Source of the DNA: Trichostrongylus colubriformis
Lineage: Eukaryota; Nematoda; Chromadorea; Rhabditida; Trichostrongylidae
DNA: 64,000 nt
Assembly (NCBI GenBank): GCA_963978905.1
Contig: OZ022261.1
Span: 11,471,992 to 11,535,991, forward strand
Direction: 5' to 3'
Shown: positions 20,961 to 56,797 of the stretch, piece after piece
Position numbering within the stretch: position 1 is the first letter of the stretch
How the letters are laid out: the number at the start of each line of letters is the position of its first letter
Position numbers and translations under genes: made by a program
The notes under the pieces: generated by a model
The model's input: the letters and a program-made list of their open reading frames with translations, nothing else
Database searches by the model: none
Told to the model about the DNA's origin: nothing

Positions 20961-21917
20961 TCACCTGTCGTCCCGTTGTTCATCGAGAGCCTCGAGCGGG
21001 CGCCAGCAACGTCTCCATTCATCCCTGTCGCGAGCCAAAGCAGTCCAGTGAACGTTTCTGGCTCCAGGGACACGTAGCGTCTCGTTCCTTTCGCGCAGAG
21101 CTTTCGTGAAGAAGTCTGACCATCGGGCCGGCGGTCGTCCAGGTGTTCGTTTGACCTCCCGAGGGATCCAGTCGGTAACTGCTCTGGTCCAACGGTCATC
21201 ACGATATCGCACGACGTGTCCGGCCCATCTAATCTTCGATTCCTTGGCAAATACGACGGCGTCCTTGATCTTTGATCGACGATGGAGTTCGGAACTCCGG
21301 ATTCCCCTCTGCACTTGCGTGTATCGGGATACTCCGAGCATCGTCCTCTCGATGGCGCGTTGGATGACGCCGACCGCATGCTCCTCCTGCTTACGTAGAG
21401 TCCAGGTCTCTGAGGCGTATGTTAGGGCAGGAAGGACAGCGGAATCGAAGAGATGGGCGCGGAGCCGGATGTTCTTCGTCTTCTTCACTACTCCCTCGAT
21501 GGTCTTGAAGGCTCCCCATGCCGCTCTTTTCCTCCTCCTCAGCTCTGGTGCTAAGTCGTTCATCATATTGACTTCCCGACCTAGGTACACAAAGCTGAAG
21601 CGTTCGGTGACGTTCGTTCCGTTGAGCGTGAATGGGGCGTCAGGTACCAATCCGTTTCTCATGAACATCGTCTTCGTCAGGTTCAGCTGCAGACCGATCT
21701 TTCCACACTCGCAGTCGAAATCGGCTAGCATCCGTTCCGCTTGCTGGATTGTCGGTGTTATTAGCACGATGTCGTCAGCGAAGCGGAGGTGGTGTAGATG
21801 CCGGCCATCGACCTTCACTCCCATTCCTTCCCATTCCAGTTGACGCATGACGTTCTCAAGAGCGGCGCTGAATAGTTTAGGCGAGATAGTGTCGCCTTGT
21901 CGAACCCTTCTCTTCAC
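20961..21917 (-). pseudogene. RTE RT palm, thumb and C-terminal fragment
   Basis: A 318-codon open stretch starting just after the TAA at 21930-21932. It includes the [11 protein letters not shown] and FADD motifs and runs to the normal stop. In the intact element it would be continuous with the KAFDSVE segment at 22187-21930. Confidence 0.85.
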
Positions 21918-22096
21918 GTCGATGATGACTTAATTGTAGAATGGCGAGATCCTGGTCGTGAAGTTGCTGTAGAGCTCACGAAGTACTCTTATATACTGAG
22001 TAGGCACACCCTGGATTCCCAGGGCTTTGATAACCGCTTCTGTCTCAACGGAGTCGAAGGCTTTCTTCAAATCGATGAATGTGAGACATAACGGCA

Positions 22097-23662
22097 TCAT
22101 GTACTCTCGCGACACTTCGATGAGTCTAGTGACCGTGTGGATGTGGTCGATTGTACTGAATCCTCTCCGAACCCTGCTTGCTCGCATGGCTGTCCTTCGT
22201 CTAAAGTTCTACCGATCCTATTCAAGATGACACGAGTGAAGAGCTTGTAGACTACAGACAGCAGGCAGATTGGACGATAATTGCCGATGTCGTGTGGATC
22301 TCCCTTCTTATACAGCAACACAGTCCTGCTAGTTTTCCACGATGTGGGTACCTTGCATTCCGACAGGTAGCGTGTGAAGAGTCGGGCCAGTGTTTTGACG
22401 ATAACTGGCGGAAGATTCTTCAGATTTTCCGGTCTGATCCTTCGGGGCCGGGTGCTGTACCATTCTTCATCGGAAATGACGTGTCGGATTTCGCAAGGGA
22501 GAACTGATGGTACGACATATCCATCCTGCTTCAGATTGCTCCTAGGCAGTTGGACATGGCTATCGAAGAGATCCGAGTAGAAGTCGTAGATGACCTTCTC
22601 CATTGCCCTTCGGGAAGCAGTAACTGTGCCGTCCGGACGCCGGAGACCGGTCATTTTGGTCTTATAACTGGCGAAGCCTCGGCGGGCATTTCGAATGCTC
22701 CTCCCAGCCTCTGCTGCTTCAGCCAGCACTGCTGCTCTTCTCTCCTTGAGATCTTCTTTTATCGCCTCTCTGCATCGCTTCGCAAGTTCGGACGTCAGTT
22801 GGTAATCGCCTGCGGCTCGTGCGGCTCCACGTTGGCGTATCAGCTCGAGAGTTTCCGAAGAGAGACGCCTCTTTGTGACTTTCAAACTCTCTGCCCTCCT
22901 GGCACAATCGTGAAGATGCTCAACGAGCCGGTTGTACTCGTCGTCGATGTTTTCGATAACGGAATCCTCCCATACACCAGCGAGAGAAACGAAGTGTTCC
23001 CAATTGATGACTGTCTTGGGTCTTCGCTCCTTGAATTTCGCGGCTCTCTCTCCACGTATCGAAAAGAGGAATTTTGCGCGGATGAGTCGATGGTCTGATC
23101 CCGTATAGAACTTCGGAACAACAGCGACGTCGGTCAGGCAAAACCTTCGATTGAAGATGACGTGATCGATCTCATTATGGAATTGTCCACCGGGTGACTC
23201 CCAAGTCCATCGCAAATGAGAGGGCTTCTGGAACTGTGAGTTACCATGGATGGAGTTGATCGACATAATAAACTCAGACAGCCTTTCACCCTGCTCATTC
23301 CATCCCGTTCCGCGAGTCCCGATGTGAAGCTCATTGTCCGTTCTTCTAGGGCCGATCTTGGCGTTGAAGTCGCCGACGATGACCTTGAAGAAGGTGTGGT
23401 CTTCCTTGTAGAACTTCTCCAATTCTACATAAAAAGCTTCGAGCTCGTCTTCGTCGTAGCTTGATGTTGGTGCATAGGCGACGAAGATGGTCAAAGCCGG
23501 GATTGAACCGCATCTTTTCAATCGCAAACGTCCGATTCGGGTTGTCAGATTTTCGTACGAATCGATGTTCATGGCCAAGTGCGTGTTGACGAGAACGCCC
23601 ACACCGCCAACGCCTCTCCTGTCGCATGTTCCGAGGAACAGTTCTTCACCAGTCCCGTACAC
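22097..23662 (-). pseudogene. RTE endonuclease and RT fingers fragment
   Basis: A 521-codon open stretch covering most of the endonuclease and the start of the reverse transcriptase. It lacks the endonuclease N-terminus, which lies in another frame upstream (to 23850). It shifts out of frame just after QAGFG near 22190. It holds the VGDFNAK and SDHR catalytic motifs. Confidence 0.85.
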
Positions 23663-24309
23663 GGCGTGTAGCGGGCGATGCTCCTCGTCTCGGTCAGTCC
23701 GATGACGTCGTACTTGATCTTCCTGGCTTGCATCATCAGATCTTCGATACTCGCTTCCGATGCAAGAGTTCGTGCGTTGGAAGTACAGATCGCCATCTTA
23801 GTCCTTCTCGATTTAGGCAGCCTGTTGTGGCCCTGAGATTTTAGCAGCACCTCTCCCGAGCGGTCCTACCCAACGCTGCCGTATTGGGGGCTCCCTCAGG
23901 TTCAGGGGAATGAGGCCCATTTTTGTTGCTGTTTTCAGCAAGATGGAGACCCACGAGTAGCTTGCCGGGCTCTGTCGTGGGGGCTAGGTATACTCCGGGT
24001 AGTTAGCCAGGCTATCCCGAAGTGGACATGGGGTTTATTTGTTGGAGGCGACCCCGGACCGCCTCCCATGTACCTCCCAGTCGTTAGAATGCAAGCTTTT
24101 GGCTGGACCGAATGCAGGATACCGACTGCCCCATACAGAACGCCCCCACACGTATGCAAGAAACGTTTGCACGGATACAGAGGGTATGAATCAGCCCAGC
24201 GCAGAAGAAACAGGGAGTCCATCCCCTGGATCCACCTGCGTCTCAGGGCAGGTACATGGTGGCTTTTGGTCCGCGATTAGCCCCCTATCCGCTACCTGGG
24301 GTTGCGCCA

Positions 24310-27189: not shown

Positions 27190-28450
27190 ATCGTACAACG
27201 ACATCACAGGAAAAAACAACTGAAACAGTGAAACAAACAGCGGAACAGCACCAGGGTGGAACGAAGAAAAACTCCACCGTCTCGTAAGTCTCAATGTCAA
27301 ATAAGAAGTAAAAGTAGTGAGCAACAGCCTCGTGCCGGTACGCTAGCGGTCAAAAATATATGCGGTTATGATTTACCCATAGTTTCGGTCGATGCTGACA
27401 TAACTCGTCCAAATTCTTCGAATTCTGAAGGCAGTTGTCACACAATAGAACAAAGTATCCTTGTTGGCTAGGGCGCAGGGTGGAGGTTGAAAAATCTATT
27501 TGACCGAAAACTCTGAAAATGAACCAAACCTTCCAAAGAATCCAACCAATCATAAAGAGCCTCCAACCCAGCGAAATGAGTAGGTGCGCAGAACGTAACA
27601 CGAAATAAGCCTAGCACTTCGCACACGTCATTCGGAATCATGACAGCTTGTCATCTCTGCAGCACGGAGTTGGTCATTTTCGGAGTTTCCACATAAATAA
27701 ATTTTTCAGCTTCTATCCTGCACCCCACTCAGCTGAGATACTTGCTTTATTGAGCAACAAATGCCTTCAAATCACAAAAAAAAAATTGAACAAAATATGT
27801 AATCGTTGTCCAAAGTTATGGCTAAATCCCAGAACCGCATATATTTTCGACCGCTGATGTACTCTGCAAATTTTTGAAAAGATTTTAAGCTATTTACAAG
27901 AAGAAATATTTTAAAAACTTTTCAAATTGAGAATATCTTCGCCGCGGGATTCCTGTCTGTCCTATTAAGTCAACAAAAACAATAGAAACTATCTCTTCCG
28001 TAGGGTCTGCAAAATGTTGGAATAATCTGAAAACACAGTGGCTGGAGAATATTGACCGGAGCATGCGAACTGAAGAGAGTAATGAATCATGGATTTCACC
28101 GTGGCAATGTCAACGAATGCTGACACAACCCGGTAGCTCAGCTGAACACCTCTTATGATTCATAAAGGGGTGGGCGTTTGTATACTCACTACTGCTCGAT
28201 ATAGCACGAAGTAGACTCATGCCTACTTGACCGATTATGCATCTCCAGCAGCATATCGCAATTGCAGACCATCCATCTACCCTACCCACTTAATGCTGCC
28301 CTACATAGGACAAAATAAAAGTATGGTGGATGCTATGGCAGTGAGGGGGGAGGATCTTATAAAGGTTGCCCATCTAACAAGGGAAGGACCCGAAGTCGAA
28401 GAGGCCATTTGGAATAGGATACATATGGTCCGACGTATTTTTGGACACTG
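27190..28450. other. No gene recognised
   Basis: One ORF-like stretch (27200-27300) ends at a GTAAGT but could not be joined to anything. The rest shows no feature. Confidence 0.3.
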
Positions 28451-28460
28451 AACTCGAGCC

Positions 28461-28607
28461 TGCACTTCAAATCTGCAGAACGGTTCTCTGAGCGGAGTTA
28501 TGGTTTTTTTTAAACAATACTATCATATGGTAGGTGCACTTCAAATCTGCAGAACGGTTCTCTGAGCGGAGTTATGGTTTTTTTAAACAATACTATCATA
28601 TGGTAGG
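28461..28607. repeat. Direct tandem duplication of ~74 bp
   Basis: Two adjacent copies of GCACTTCAAATCTGCAGAAC..ATCATATGGTAGG (28461-28534 and 28535-28607) differ by about one base. The second copy is the left arm of the foldback element that follows, so the duplication extends one arm only. Confidence 0.85.
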
Positions 28608-28930
28608 TTTGGAAGCCCGTAGCACGCGAGCCAGACGTTTCGCGCAAAACCAGCGCGATTTTCGTGTTCGGGGAGTCGAACTACCCCAAGGTACAAGTTT
28701 TTAGCCAATTCGAGTATTTGACCAAATTTCGGAAGAATTCTTGTCTTACCGAGAATTTGACCAAATTTCGGAAAAATTCTTGGCCTACCCAATCATGAAA
28801 TCGCATTGATTTTTCGCGAGAACGTGTGGCTTGCGTGCTGTTCCAAACCTACCATATAACAGTATTGTTTTTCAAAAAACCTCCACAACTCCGCTCAGAG
28901 AATCGTTCTGCAAGTATAGAATGCAGGTTT
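28535..28930. mobile_element. Foldback MITE upstream of the Penelope element
   Basis: The left arm (28535-28640) and right arm (about 28815-28930) are inverted copies: GGTAGGTTTGGAA against TTCCAAACCTACC, and CTCTGAGCGGAGTT against AACTCCGCTCAGAG. The centre contains a tandem repeat of GACCAAATTTCGGAAGAATTC. Confidence 0.8.
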
Positions 28931-28990
28931 TACATAGTAGGACCATGCTTGGTCACTACTAATTATCCAAAAAAAAAAAAATAGACTTAT

Positions 28991-29049
28991 CCCTATTCAC
29001 ACCTACTAATCCATTAATAGGAGGGCCATACCTCCTACTAAAAATAGGG
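28991..29049 (+). other. Structured leader of the Penelope-like element
   Basis: An outer 7-bp stem (28991-28997 with 29043-29049) encloses two mutually exclusive hairpins: 29002-29009 with 29014-29021, and 29015-29024 with 29031-29040 (10 pairs, one mismatch). It lies about 160 nt upstream of the ORF. No hammerhead core was found in it. Confidence 0.55.
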
Positions 29050-29207
29050 ATTAACGCTGATGGGGTTTATAAAAGTCAAAAATGGCTTGATGGGACAATT
29101 TTTGGCGCCTCCAGCGTTGGTCGTTCCGAAAGGAACACACAGGGAGAGCCATCCCCTGGGCAGCAGCCCTGCCGAACCGTACAGGAAGTTCCCTCCGTGC
29201 GTTTGGG

Positions 29208-32096
29208 ATGGACCGCTCACAACGCAAGTATTTTCGGTCTAAAAACAATCGTAGCAATCAAAGCCTTTTCTATTTCACACAAACCAATTTTGTTAAGGTT
29301 AGGGATGGACCTAACTATCATTTACAAAACTTTGGCAATATTGTTAAGGGTACTAGTTGTGAAAGGGAATGTAGAACATGCAGAATCACAACAATGGATA
29401 ATTTTATAAGATCACATGTAACTGGTCTGTTAATAAATACATATAAAGAGTTAGACACAAATTGTAGAACTAAAGGTGTTGTTTACTGTATAACTTGCAA
29501 TAATTGCGGAATACAATATGTAGGTATGACAACTAGAAAAGTTAAAGATAGAATAGGAGAACATCTTACTAATATTAGTACACACAAAAAACATACACCT
29601 TTATATGACCATTTCTATAAGTGTGACAAAGGGATTACCATTCATATTTTAGACTCCGCCAAAGAAAATGATAAAAATACTCTAGAAGAAAAAGAACTGT
29701 TTTGGATCAAATTACTCATGACACCTTATCCTTTTGGTTTAAACGACAACATAAAAGGTTATGGTAACATCACCAATGTTAGTAATCCCTTATATCACAA
29801 AAATAAACCTCCTTTCTTTGACTTAAAAATCATAAAGCAACGTAGCAATCGCGGTAAAGTAAAAAAGAAGAAAGATAAGCAAAAAATCGGCTTAGAGAAA
29901 ATCTTAGAGGAAATAGTAACCAATAGAACAAAAAAGAAACCAATAACTTATTTCAGAATGCTGAACAGCCTACGTAAAGAAGAAATACAAAAACTGCTTA
30001 AGCTGTCAGTTACACAAAACTTTTTGGAAACCATTAATAAAAAAGAAAAGTTTTTAGTTCTCTGTTTACTAGCTCATTTTCTCTACAAAAAAGACAGTAA
30101 CAATAAACCTAACAAAACATTTCATAACATCACCTTGCAATTTTGCAATCGTATTTTGGATCATATACCTATTAATAGAATCATTAATTCTAAAAAGGTA
30201 AAAAATATAATATATGTAGAAGAAGAAGCATTTGTTCCTATTCGTATAATATATAAATGTGGTAATGCTGTATCAAGTTCTATATATAACTACAACAAAG
30301 CTCTGAAAAATATGGATAAAGATGAGTTAAAAGAAGTTATTACAGGTGACTGTAAATGCACGGAAACAACGGTTAAGAATTATGTTAATCAACATTACGG
30401 CCATGTGGTTACAGGGGATTTGAATATAATTAAAGAGTACGATCTTAGATCCCTATTAATGAAAGGTACCAAGTTCAGAATAGATTCACCGGTCACCAGA
30501 CATGATATTAAGAGCATATACGAGGAAGTAATGGAAAAAACTATAGACCTCTTCAAGGTCAAATACAAAATTAATAACCAAAAAATAAATTTATTAAAAC
30601 AACATCTACAACACTGTTATCGTAAGACAATCAAACCACTAATGACAAGAGAAAATTTAAATAATCAGAACACTTACATACCTTATAGCATTATAAAAAG
30701 GTATCAAAGAAGTTTTGTTTTCTGCCCATTAGATAAAGCTAGCAATAACTATGGGATTATTTGTAAAAAATTCTACTTACTGAGTCTCATGAAAGAAATG
30801 GGCATCAGTTATGATTCAACCAATAATACCTACGTACAATCCAACACAAATAATACCTATGAAATTACACAAAACAGTAATAAGCACTCGGTTATATTAA
30901 AACATAAGTTTTTATGTATTCGCAATAATCTCAAATTCGAAATTAATGCTGATTTACCTATTATATATGCCTTACCTAAACTCCATAAAAACCCAATTAA
31001 ATTTAGATTCATTACGGGAGCTCGTAACAGCAGCTTGAAACCATTGGCACTAGAACTACATAACATCTTTTGTTATTTTAAAAAACATTTTATCAACTAT
31101 AATGGGGTTATTCAAGATCGGAATAGATCCATTAAAACATACTGGTCAATTAATAACATTAATATTAGTTATGAACTTAATAACATTCAACATGATAATC
31201 TAAAAATCTATACTGCCGATTTTACTGATATGTTCACCAATTTGGAACACAAACTTATTATTAGTAGTATGAAAGAACTAATAAAAATTTGCTTCAAAAA
31301 TGCAAACAAGACAATGGTTGCCACAGACGGATATCATGTATTTTACACTGACGGCAGATTAGTCAAAAACAACTACAGACTTTACAACCTAAATGATTTA
31401 TTGTATCTCATAGATTATTTGTTGAGCAATAGTTATTGTGTTTTTGCAGGTAACATATATAAGCAGAAAAAGGGTGTTCCACAGGGAGGTAACTTTAGTC
31501 CTCTTCTAGCCGATCTAACTTTATCAATCATAGAGTATAATTATGCTAAAAGTCATAGAGTAGAAGGAATAGAGTTGTTTATACCATATAGGTACATGGA
31601 TGATCTGCTGGTCATACATAACCAGACAGAAGACGAAATAGAAGCAAGATTAAAAGTAATTTACAACAATATACTGGAACTTAAAAAGACTAACAAAACA
31701 GGGTTTAGCAGTAACTACTTAGATCTCAAAATTGATATAATTAATGGAAAAATTGAAACTACTCTATATAATAAAACCGATGATTTCAATTTTAAGGTAA
31801 TAAGATTTCCACACAATAATAGCAATATATCCAAAAACATAAAAGGTTCAGTAATTTATACTGAAACCTTAAGAATCGCAAACACATGCTCTAGAATTGA
31901 AACCTTCATACAAAAAATTAGTGACATGATTATATTACTAAAGGGAAATGAATATTCCAAAGATTTTATTTTGGTTAACATTATAAAATGCTTGTATAGA
32001 AATAAACACATATGTTATAAGTTCTCTATAACTAACAGTGTGATAACCATTGATCGTTTTGTAAAAAAGCTACTCTACAGCCTCAATGATGATTAA
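29208..32096 (+). CDS. Penelope-like polyprotein: GIY-YIG endonuclease plus reverse transcriptase
   Basis: An intact 962-residue ORF. The N-terminal GIY-YIG endonuclease covers roughly 88-170: GVVY 90-93, the C97 and C100 pair, YVG 104-106, R115, H119, and E163 or a neighbour as catalytic Glu. This gives the Cys/His set seen in Penelope-like endonucleases. A CKC (382-384) is the CxC linker motif. The C-terminal reverse transcriptase has PLDKASNN (507-514), LPKLHKNP (589-596), motif A ADFTDMFTNL (670-679), motif B KKGVPQGGNFSPLLADL (754-770) and the catalytic YMDD (796-799). Family knowledge says such proteins nick DNA and copy their own RNA from the nick. There is no in-frame UGA, so no selenocysteine. 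The ATG at 29208 is simply the first in frame. The lack of any stop suggests recent or continuing activity. Confidence 0.93.
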   Translation: MDRSQRKYFRSKNNRSNQSLFYFTQTNFVKVRDGPNYHLQNFGNIVKGTSCERECRTCRITTMDNFIRSHVTGLLINTYKELDTNCRTKGVVYCITCNNCGIQYVGMTTRKVKDRIGEHLTNISTHKKHTPLYDHFYKCDKGITIHILDSAKENDKNTLEEKELFWIKLLMTPYPFGLNDNIKGYGNITNVSNPLYHKNKPPFFDLKIIKQRSNRGKVKKKKDKQKIGLEKILEEIVTNRTKKKPITYFRMLNSLRKEEIQKLLKLSVTQNFLETINKKEKFLVLCLLAHFLYKKDSNNKPNKTFHNITLQFCNRILDHIPINRIINSKKVKNIIYVEEEAFVPIRIIYKCGNAVSSSIYNYNKALKNMDKDELKEVITGDCKCTETTVKNYVNQHYGHVVTGDLNIIKEYDLRSLLMKGTKFRIDSPVTRHDIKSIYEEVMEKTIDLFKVKYKINNQKINLLKQHLQHCYRKTIKPLMTRENLNNQNTYIPYSIIKRYQRSFVFCPLDKASNNYGIICKKFYLLSLMKEMGISYDSTNNTYVQSNTNNTYEITQNSNKHSVILKHKFLCIRNNLKFEINADLPIIYALPKLHKNPIKFRFITGARNSSLKPLALELHNIFCYFKKHFINYNGVIQDRNRSIKTYWSINNINISYELNNIQHDNLKIYTADFTDMFTNLEHKLIISSMKELIKICFKNANKTMVATDGYHVFYTDGRLVKNNYRLYNLNDLLYLIDYLLSNSYCVFAGNIYKQKKGVPQGGNFSPLLADLTLSIIEYNYAKSHRVEGIELFIPYRYMDDLLVIHNQTEDEIEARLKVIYNNILELKKTNKTGFSSNYLDLKIDIINGKIETTLYNKTDDFNFKVIRFPHNNSNISKNIKGSVIYTETLRIANTCSRIETFIQKISDMIILLKGNEYSKDFILVNIIKCLYRNKHICYKFSITNSVITIDRFVKKLLYSLNDD

Positions 32097-32505
32097 ATTC
32101 CTACAGTTCATGCTTGTATTGGGCTATAGTATTCGCTTCATCACAGTGCATTTACTTAGTAACTGGGTACATACAGTTCATCCAATACGATTCCATTAGT
32201 ATCCCTTGCTCCATTACACTCCTTCAGCGTAGCCAATTGCACCTTCATTTATTGATCAATTGCCCCCCAGCCATTTCCTGACCCAGTCTTAACTGCGTAT
32301 CAAACATAATAATTTAATCGTGTGGCCTAATTATGCCTTTATTTATCTATTATCTACTTCTAATTTTCGTTCTTCACTCTTTCTTGTTTTCTCATCCGTT
32401 AACTTAACACTAACATTCCTTAACTCTACTCACTCTCATCCAATCCTAATACATTCTATTCTTTTCTAACGCATAGACTAACTTTTATTACATGCCTCAG
32501 GTATT
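32097..32505 (+). other. 3' untranslated region of the Penelope-like element
   Basis: Pyrimidine-rich and AT-rich sequence without an ORF, linking the stop codon to the ribozyme candidate. Confidence 0.6.
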
Positions 32506-32584
32506 CACCAACCCCACCTCACTGAAGAGCCTCAGGGGTTGGTGAAGACGATGGTTCGTATGAGGTTGAGGCGAAACGAACCAT
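32506..32584 (+). ncRNA. Split (kissing-loop) hammerhead ribozyme candidate
   Basis: Hairpin 1: stem 32506-32515 with 32535-32544 (10 bp, perfect). Its loop is ACCTCA (32516-32521), CTGAAGA (32522-32528), GCCTCA (32529-32534). A 6-nt linker follows. Hairpin 2: stem 32551-32559 with 32576-32584 (9 bp, perfect). Its loop is A (32560), TGAGGT (32561-32566), TGAGGC (32567-32572), GAA (32573-32575). Pairing ACCTCA with TGAGGT makes stem I, GCCTCA with TGAGGC makes stem II, and the hairpin 2 stem is stem III. All conserved core positions of a hammerhead are then met: CUGANGA, the G10.1-C11.1 pair, GAA, the A15.1-U16.1 pair and H17 = A (a GUA triplet). Cleavage is predicted after 32560. The three strands are in a non-canonical order that forces a loop-loop pseudoknot. 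Confidence 0.75.
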
Positions 32585-32996
32585 TCCCATGACTGCATTT
32601 TTCTAACATCTGTATCCTTTAATTTTTCATTGAGATCAGCGTCCGAAAATACGTCGGCATATGTATCCCCTTCCGAATGGCCACTTCGACCTCGGGTCCT
32701 TCCCATGTAAGCAACTTTGAGTCTTCAAGGGGTCAATCTGCACAATCAATCGTACATTTTTGCCTAAGCCACAGTGGAGAAAGGAAGAGGTTGTTCCCCT
32801 TCCCCTTCCCCCTCTAGGATTAGTAAAAATGACGCTCTCACTGGGATGAACCCCTCTCCTCTCCTCATTGAGATAGCACCGTATAACGAATAAGGATAAT
32901 AGAGAAATAAATAAAAGAAAATGAGTTGAGGAAAAAACAAGGGAGAAAGTATAATATATAGAAGGACTAGTTCAGATCAGGAGCTGTCATGCGCCA

Positions 32997-33393: not shown

Positions 33394-33584
33394 GTAGGTT
33401 AACGAAAAAAGTCGCTGATTAATGAACAAAGATATTTAGGGTAGTAGCACAGTGGTAAATCCAATCGGTGGTTTGAATCAAATAGAGTAGACAACAGTTG
33501 ATTTATTTTCACTCAATGATGGGATAAACAGTGAGAAAAAATAAATCTACCCGGAGCTACTACTAGGATGCTGAGTTATGAGCA

Positions 33585-33830
33585 AAAGCTTCGGTGTCGG
33601 ACGGGACTCGAACCCGCACTCCATCCTTTCCGAGCATATGTGCTAATCCATCACGCTACTGACACCCCTTTCAACTTAACTCAGCTTCTGAATGTTATAT
33701 TTACCATAGCCTATCTGCACTCACACGTGTAACATGTTGAGCCAGTTGGCCAATATCGGCATCGAACCGAGAACTGAAAGCGAGTAGATATGCAGCAGCG
33801 ATCTAAAGTCAAAAATATCAAAATCTATCC
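33585..33830 (-). mobile_element. tRNA-like SINE, family B copy 1
   Basis: The minus strand contains GGTGTCAGTAGCGTGATGG (A-box-like) and a perfect B box, GGTTCGAGTCC, within a good T-arm. The outer GGTGTC and GACACC ends pair as an acceptor stem. The anticodon stem does not form, so this is not a working tRNA gene. The flanking sequence (CCATAG, GCACTCACA, TTGGCYARYATCGGCAT) is shared with 35125-35345. Confidence 0.65.
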
Positions 33831-35124: not shown

Positions 35125-35345
35125 CGCCCAAAGGCTTGGTCTCAGATGGGACTCGAGCCCGCACTCCAGGTTTCCGTGCAAAAGAGCTGTTCTATTACAC
35201 CATGTACCCTTCCAGACACCTTTCATCATTCCTCTGCTTCTAAATGGTATAATATTAACCATAGTTATCAGCACTCACAGGTTCAAAATGATGAGCCGGT
35301 TGGCTAGCATCGGCATAGAACAGCGAAGCTGATAGCTTTAGTAGA
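35125..35345 (-). mobile_element. tRNA-like SINE, family B copy 2
   Basis: The minus strand has TGGTGTAATAGAACAG and a B-box-like GGCTCGAGTCC, preceded by GGAGTGCG as in copy 1. The downstream blocks match 33585-33830 in the same order. Confidence 0.6.
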
Positions 35346-35671
35346 TGATGGTTTTTGATGTTCCGATTTTTTTATTGATTGAATGCTCACTTTTGCCGAA
35401 CGATAAGGTTGTTAGTAACGTCCTCACTGCGCATTACGGCGAATATCCGTGGCCAATAAAAATCAGAATTTCAAGTTTCGGAGCGGTTTCAAATATGAAA
35501 TATTTTATTGTGCTTTTTTTAGTGACTCCATCAACAGTTCTAGTGCCAGACGTGATTAGAGCCTCTATGTTCACGATTCCCTTCCATGCAGGGCAGATAT
35601 CACACTCCGCCCACCCCTCCCCCCCCCCCCCGCCCTTCCCTTCCAAGATTTTTCGACCAACTTGACGTGGG

Positions 35672-53813: not shown

Positions 53814-56797
<2,984 letters not shown>

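Follow-up and report, generated by a model that had tools for sequence, protein, structure and literature searches.

Behind the gene of a Penelope-like retrotransposon in the window (the whole 64-kb stretch of DNA that we analysed), we find a short motif at 32504-32584 that carries the parts of a hammerhead ribozyme in a permuted order. We consider it likely that this motif folds as a pseudoknotted type-CSG hammerhead and cleaves the element's RNA after A32560. The sequence, the complementary stems and the order of the blocks are observed directly, while folding and cleavage are predicted by analogy with published type-CSG ribozymes of the same block order. The novelty lies in where it is found, behind a Naiad-type retroelement gene; the CSG topology itself is known. 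The features that we use throughout are listed here, with core positions numbered by the usual hammerhead scheme.

29091-32096, + strand: 1001-codon open frame for a Naiad-type Penelope-like protein
32504-32515, + strand: 5' arm of hairpin 1 (12 bp), which joins the tips of stems I and II
32516-32521, + strand: 5' strand of stem I, ACCTCA, start of block C
32522-32528, + strand: core CTGAAGA (CUGANGA)
32529-32534, + strand: 5' strand of stem II, GCCTCA, end of block C
32535-32546, + strand: 3' arm of hairpin 1
32551-32559, + strand: 3' strand of stem III, ATGGTTCGT, U16.1 last, start of block S
32560, + strand: H17 (A) of the GUA triplet 32558-32560, read in the sequence, with cleavage predicted to follow it
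32561-32566, + strand: 3' strand of stem I, TGAGGT, end of block S
32567-32572, + strand: 3' strand of stem II, TGAGGC, start of block G
32573-32575, + strand: core GAA (G12 A13 A14)
32576-32584, + strand: 5' strand of stem III, ACGAACCAT, A15.1 first, end of block G

Direct reading of 32504-32584 gives two neighbouring perfect hairpins with stems of 12 and 9 bp. In hairpin 1, 32504-32515 pairs with 32535-32546 around a 19-nt loop made up of ACCTCA, CTGAAGA and GCCTCA in turn; in hairpin 2, 32551-32559 pairs with 32576-32584 around a 16-nt loop of A, TGAGGT, TGAGGC and GAA. Together the two loops hold all of the conserved hammerhead nucleotides and two perfect 6-bp helices, stem I (ACCUCA/UGAGGU) and stem II (GCCUCA/UGAGGC), each of which pairs loop 1 with loop 2. 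The stem of hairpin 2 is hammerhead stem III (9 bp), and stems I/II/III of 6/6/9 bp are Watson-Crick paired throughout. The core pairs G10.1-C11.1 and A15.1-U16.1, the GUA triplet and a non-G H17 are all present. The original prediction had placed an entire hammerhead core between the loops of two adjoining perfect hairpins, with perfect stems of 6, 6 and 9 bp, these same core pairs and a GUA triplet, and every one of these parts can be located in the sequence. Of the limits that it gave (32506 to 32584) the end is right, but the start moves to 32504 because the hairpin-1 stem has 12 bp and reaches two bases further on the 5' side. Stems I and II have in common a 5-bp core, CCUCA/UGAGG (within 32516-32534 and 32561-32572), so that each loop carries its half twice. 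The near identity of the two stems hints that the scrambled order arose via a small duplication.

From 5' to 3' the blocks run C (32516-32534), S (32551-32566) and G (32567-32584). This order rules out hammerhead types I, II and III (CGS, GSC, SCG) and, as had been predicted, calls for a pseudoknot. Eckert et al. 2023 (PMC10085705) treat the hammerhead as made of three blocks, C, G and S, and report three non-circular permutations, each of which requires a pseudoknot. In the text of that paper, type-CSG consists of two similar sequences, CSG-1 and CSG-2, known from metagenomes only; both RNAs self-cleave in vitro where expected, at rates of 0.004 and 0.026 per min, and a helix that joins stems I and II is described for them (PMC10085705). 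In our motif the helix that unites stems I and II is the 12-bp stem of hairpin 1. The topology is thus not new, because type-CSG was described in 2023 and shown to cleave in vitro (PMC10085705): the idea of a rearranged, pseudoknotted hammerhead unlike types I-III holds, and the arrangement was already in print.

The likeness to CSG-1 and CSG-2 lies in the C-S-G order, the conserved core, the helix joining stems I and II, as these are described in the text, and a similar length (constructs of 77 and 78 nt there, 81 nt for our motif). The differences are in origin (metagenomic, with no host or element named in the text, whereas ours lies behind a retrotransposon gene) and in that CSG-1 and CSG-2 cleave in vitro whereas cleavage of the window motif is predicted. 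The published type-SGC ribozymes (HRIMA-1 and variants; PMC10085705) follow, by their description, from this permuted order by cyclic rotation; there too the 3' strand of stem I is joined to the 3' strand of stem II and a helix unites the tips of I and II. Type-SGC has another 5'-3' order, is known from metatranscriptomes, together with hairpin ribozymes (PMC10085705), and its linker is typically three nucleotides, whereas the window motif has 0 there. Since CSG shows little covariation, its authors regard its biological relevance as less supported than that of SGC (PMC10085705). A literature search for type-CSG hammerheads, outside which most subscription journals lay, found Eckert et al. 2023 alone, and the two works citing that paper that we found are, by title, RNA 3D-comparison tools.

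The motif starts 407 nt downstream of the stop codon of the 29091-32096 frame, on the same strand. In this frame Pfam places GIY-YIG at residues 128-209 and the reverse transcriptase (RVT_1) at 636-861, so that the endonuclease is N-terminal to the RT, and the earlier expectation of a Penelope-like ORF with an N-terminal endonuclease beside the motif is borne out. A CxC lies at 421-423. When the window's protein is aligned with 20 of its 28 relatives, neither C421 nor C423 varies among the 21 sequences, and GIY-YIG is present in 19 of them; the nearest of the 28 relatives is 44% identical. When the predicted structure of the protein (mean pLDDT 76.9) is compared with PDB folds, telomerase chains take the first 18 places, with E from 5e-12 to 1.3e-7 and low TM-scores (query-normalised, 0.23-0.34). 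A telomerase-like RT combined with GIY-YIG identifies a Penelope-like element. By the usual definition of Naiad (N-terminal GIY-YIG, CxC motif, telomerase-like RT, pseudo-LTRs), the frame has the anatomy of a Naiad-type Penelope-like element. As to the pseudo-LTRs, there is no upstream copy of the 3' region within the window, and a single copy of an element can lack them.

Who owns the ribozyme is a separate question from whether it is one. A real type-CSG hammerhead could belong to another mobile unit or repeat beside the Naiad-type element, a reading that would fit a repeat-rich window with no pseudo-LTR copy upstream of the frame and with a repeat, shared with 28374-28455, that starts 47 nt past the motif. 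We consider it unlikely, as the motif lies close behind the stop of an uninterrupted frame in the same orientation, is absent from the rest of the window, and has counterparts in the hammerheads that the terminal repeats of canonical relatives are described as holding (PMC6431247, PMC7936874, PMC11167929). The repeat in question, 32632-32711, matches 28374-28455 in inverted orientation over roughly 80 bp at 85% identity and thus flanks the Naiad-type frame on both sides. It is possibly a host repeat that marks the ends of the element, or else an inverted partial copy. Foreign sequence may begin at 32632, and if it does, the ribozyme would sit at the very 3' end of the element.

Several further searches concern the element and its surroundings. 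A second ribozyme or a pseudo-LTR upstream of the ORF was sought within the window and not found; at 28900-29500, the 5' region, Rfam gives two matches at E up to 10, both far under the cut-off and neither a ribozyme. Scans for the DNA of relatives found no relative in viral contigs (protein or alignment scans; 12, 88 and 7 pattern matches) or in genome contigs (alignment scan, 174 pattern matches), and blastn against phages gave no match. Just upstream of the element lies a MITE-like unit, 28461-28925, whose terminal inverted repeats (28474-28535 and 28847-28912) match at 85% and whose left end (28461-28608) is doubled in tandem.

How would the type-CSG fold be assembled? Loop 1 would contribute CUGAAGA flanked by the 5' strands of stems I and II, and loop 2 the two matching 3' strands back to back; the hairpin-2 stem would serve as stem III, and the 12-bp stem of hairpin 1 would connect stems I and II at their tips. 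Helices I and II would then belong to two three-way junctions at once, the core junction with stem III and an outer junction with the hairpin-1 stem. The outer junction would contain no unpaired nucleotide, but its terminal A-U pairs, A32516-U32566 and A32534-U32567, could open and so provide a linker of two nucleotides. In the cleavage step the 2'-OH of A32560 would attack, so that A32560 ends in a 2',3'-cyclic phosphate and U32561 begins with a 5'-OH.

Some observations count against this reading. Junction linkers of 0 nt are tight, given that type-SGC typically has three (PMC10085705, as described there), a single copy of the motif is known, the window shows no upstream pseudo-LTR copy, and in a plain duplex of the two free loops the swapped register is favoured. 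The sequences of stems I and II are almost alike, so that pairing in the swapped register loses only about 2 kcal/mol (-13.7 vs -15.7). In addition, GCCTCAGG at 32494-32501 is a competitor for the stem II strand (duplex -12.5 kcal/mol). This segment is a repeat, 35 nt upstream, of 32529-32536 (stem II 5' strand plus adjoining bases), and it could act as an off-switch for the ribozyme.

The same energetics lend something to a second reading, in which the two hairpins kiss for a non-catalytic purpose (dimerisation, packaging or recognition by the reverse transcriptase) and the hammerhead core is a coincidence or a relic. Both hairpins are stable: the nested two-hairpin fold of 32504-32584 has -33.4 kcal/mol and z -4.37, with 0 of 200 shuffles equally stable (with flanks, 32490-32600, z is -2.76 and 2 of 200 shuffles are equally stable). 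The free loops, moreover, are able to pair at near-equal energy when the register is swapped to the ordinary antiparallel one. This reading leaves CUGAAGA, GAA, the A15.1-U16.1 pair and the exact spacing of the core unexplained, and the calculated probability of the loop content, given both hairpins, is about 1e-10; we judge it quite improbable. The motif is very probably a real type-CSG hammerhead.

How often such an arrangement arises by chance can be estimated from simulation. Our block finder takes the blocks in any of the six orders, requires stems of 4/4/4 bp or more and the exact cores CTGANGA and GAA, and searches both strands with a reach of 150 nt. Its single match in the 64-kb window (both strands) is the motif at 32504-32584; a canonical alternative elsewhere in the window is thereby ruled out, there being no other arrangement of at least 4/4/4 bp. 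For comparison we generated sequence from a first-order Markov model that keeps the dinucleotide composition of the window, in two runs of 20.288 Gb and 26.224 Gb, and searched one strand with a reach of 120 nt. Across these 46.5 Gb, 7 arrangements of any order have I of at least 6, II of at least 6 and III of at least 9 bp: 3 among the 1366 matches of at least 5/5/5 bp in the 20.288-Gb run and 4 among the corresponding 1759 in the 26.224-Gb run, with 1 CSG in each set. The closing helix, which has 12 bp in the real motif, has 4, 3, 1 and 3 bp in those 4 from the 26.224-Gb run, where it was measured in full (trimming and linkers of 0-3 nt allowed); in the 20.288-Gb run it was counted after greedy extension of stem II, which may undercount it. 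Closing helices of at least 8 bp occur in 6 of the 1759 matches, with shorter core stems, and one of these is CSG (5/6/5, 8 bp). An earlier, smaller simulation of 19.2 Mb gave 28 matches of 4/4/4 bp and 0 CSG.

The finder was also run on real DNA. When IMG/VR viral contigs were scanned for CTGANGAGCC followed 25-55 nt on by GGCGAAAC, at least 120 loci were obtained, and on 120 of them (1,077,884 bases) the finder makes 37 matches of at least 4/4/4 bp in 25 loci: 16 CGS, 9 SCG, 9 GSC, 2 SGC and 1 CSG. As a control of the finder, 34 of the 37 are in type I-III orders, in loci preselected by a hammerhead-like pattern. The sole CSG-order match, in L103, has 5/5/4 bp across 128 nt and is probably chance. 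Two patterns derived from this ribozyme gave 11 loci in viral contigs and 72 in genome contigs, and the finder has no match on those 83 loci (619,237 bases). That the window motif is a functionless chance resemblance, for which its single known copy could be cited, is highly improbable: the 46.5 Gb of simulation yield 7 stem sets as long, with closing helices of at most 4 bp in the 4 measured, and real DNA amounting to 1.70 Mb (203 loci, of which 120 were picked by a hammerhead-like pattern) yields one weak CSG match (L103).

Standard descriptors had been expected to miss the motif, and the Rfam models indeed list no hammerhead at 32300-32900, even at E up to 10. This absence is what one expects, since the models describe another strand order. 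An Rfam search of the whole 64-kb window at the gathering threshold also gives 0 matches, which is weak evidence because the same search gave 0 on six phage loci, one of which has a Hammerhead_3 match by E-value search (the E-value search of phage loci covered L018 alone). In L018, two of the finder's three matches fall on hammerheads that Rfam lists under its gathering threshold, namely Hammerhead_3 (36.9 bits, E 2.7e-5, curated cut-off 48.5) and RAGATH-1-hammerhead (E 1.1). As a side observation on these IMG/VR contigs, L018 and L119 each carry hammerhead-like motifs of all three types I, II and III on one contig, and L003, L061, L073, L074, L106 and L113 carry motifs of two types per contig; in such multi-type contigs, L018 and L119 among them, the same spacings between the motifs often recur.

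What would a type-CSG hammerhead do for the element? Canonical Penelope-like elements, and Terminons, are described as having hammerheads in their terminal repeats (PMC6431247, PMC7936874, PMC11167929), and in both these elements and the window a hammerhead core adjoins a Penelope-like ORF. By this analogy, the job done on the element's RNA is likely the same: cutting of the element's transcripts, which could yield unit lengths from tandem copies or trim the 3' end. As this copy keeps both sides of the site, its template RNA would have been uncut there, or else a tandem transcript. The element's protein possibly helps cleavage. For the Anolis element, hammerhead cleavage is reported only with the element's protein, and hammerhead mutants of a canonical element left in-vitro insertion unaffected (PMC11167929), a result that speaks against our reading. 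The systems differ in that canonical hammerheads (types I-III) are described as needing no pseudoknot in the core whereas the window motif needs one, and in that the Anolis ribozyme overlaps the start of the ORF whereas ours lies behind the stop codon.

The CSG order had been known from two similar sequences, neither with a named host, and the retrotransposon gene gives it a biological setting. The window motif would be the third natural example of the order and is likely the first CSG hammerhead tied to a mobile element; a literature search, with most subscription journals outside it, did not find Naiad Penelope-like elements together with a hammerhead. Naiad elements were reportedly found by Craig and colleagues in 2021 to have no canonical hammerhead motifs, unlike other Penelope-like elements, whereas the Naiad-type element of the window has a non-canonical one adjacent to it, and this offers a possible way out of the puzzle. 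More tentatively, and at somewhat below even chances in our view, Naiad-type elements kept the hammerhead in a CSG order that descriptors bound to a topology do not see, CSG-1 and CSG-2 being pieces of such elements. A host with many copies would permit tests of covariation, cleavage and transposition.

The rest of the window contains other features. On the minus strand, 20961-23794 holds pieces of a non-LTR retrotransposon, with Exo_endo_phos in one frame and RVT_1 in the next. A tRNA-Ser (GGA) is called at 33592-33666 (minus strand) within 33583-33789, a segment 73% like 35129-35346 and perhaps a tRNA-derived repeat. Finally, the exon-like frame at 55577-55990 (minus strand) matches the carboxyl transferase family Carboxyl_trans (E 5.6e-32) and resembles the beta chain of propionyl-CoA carboxylase.
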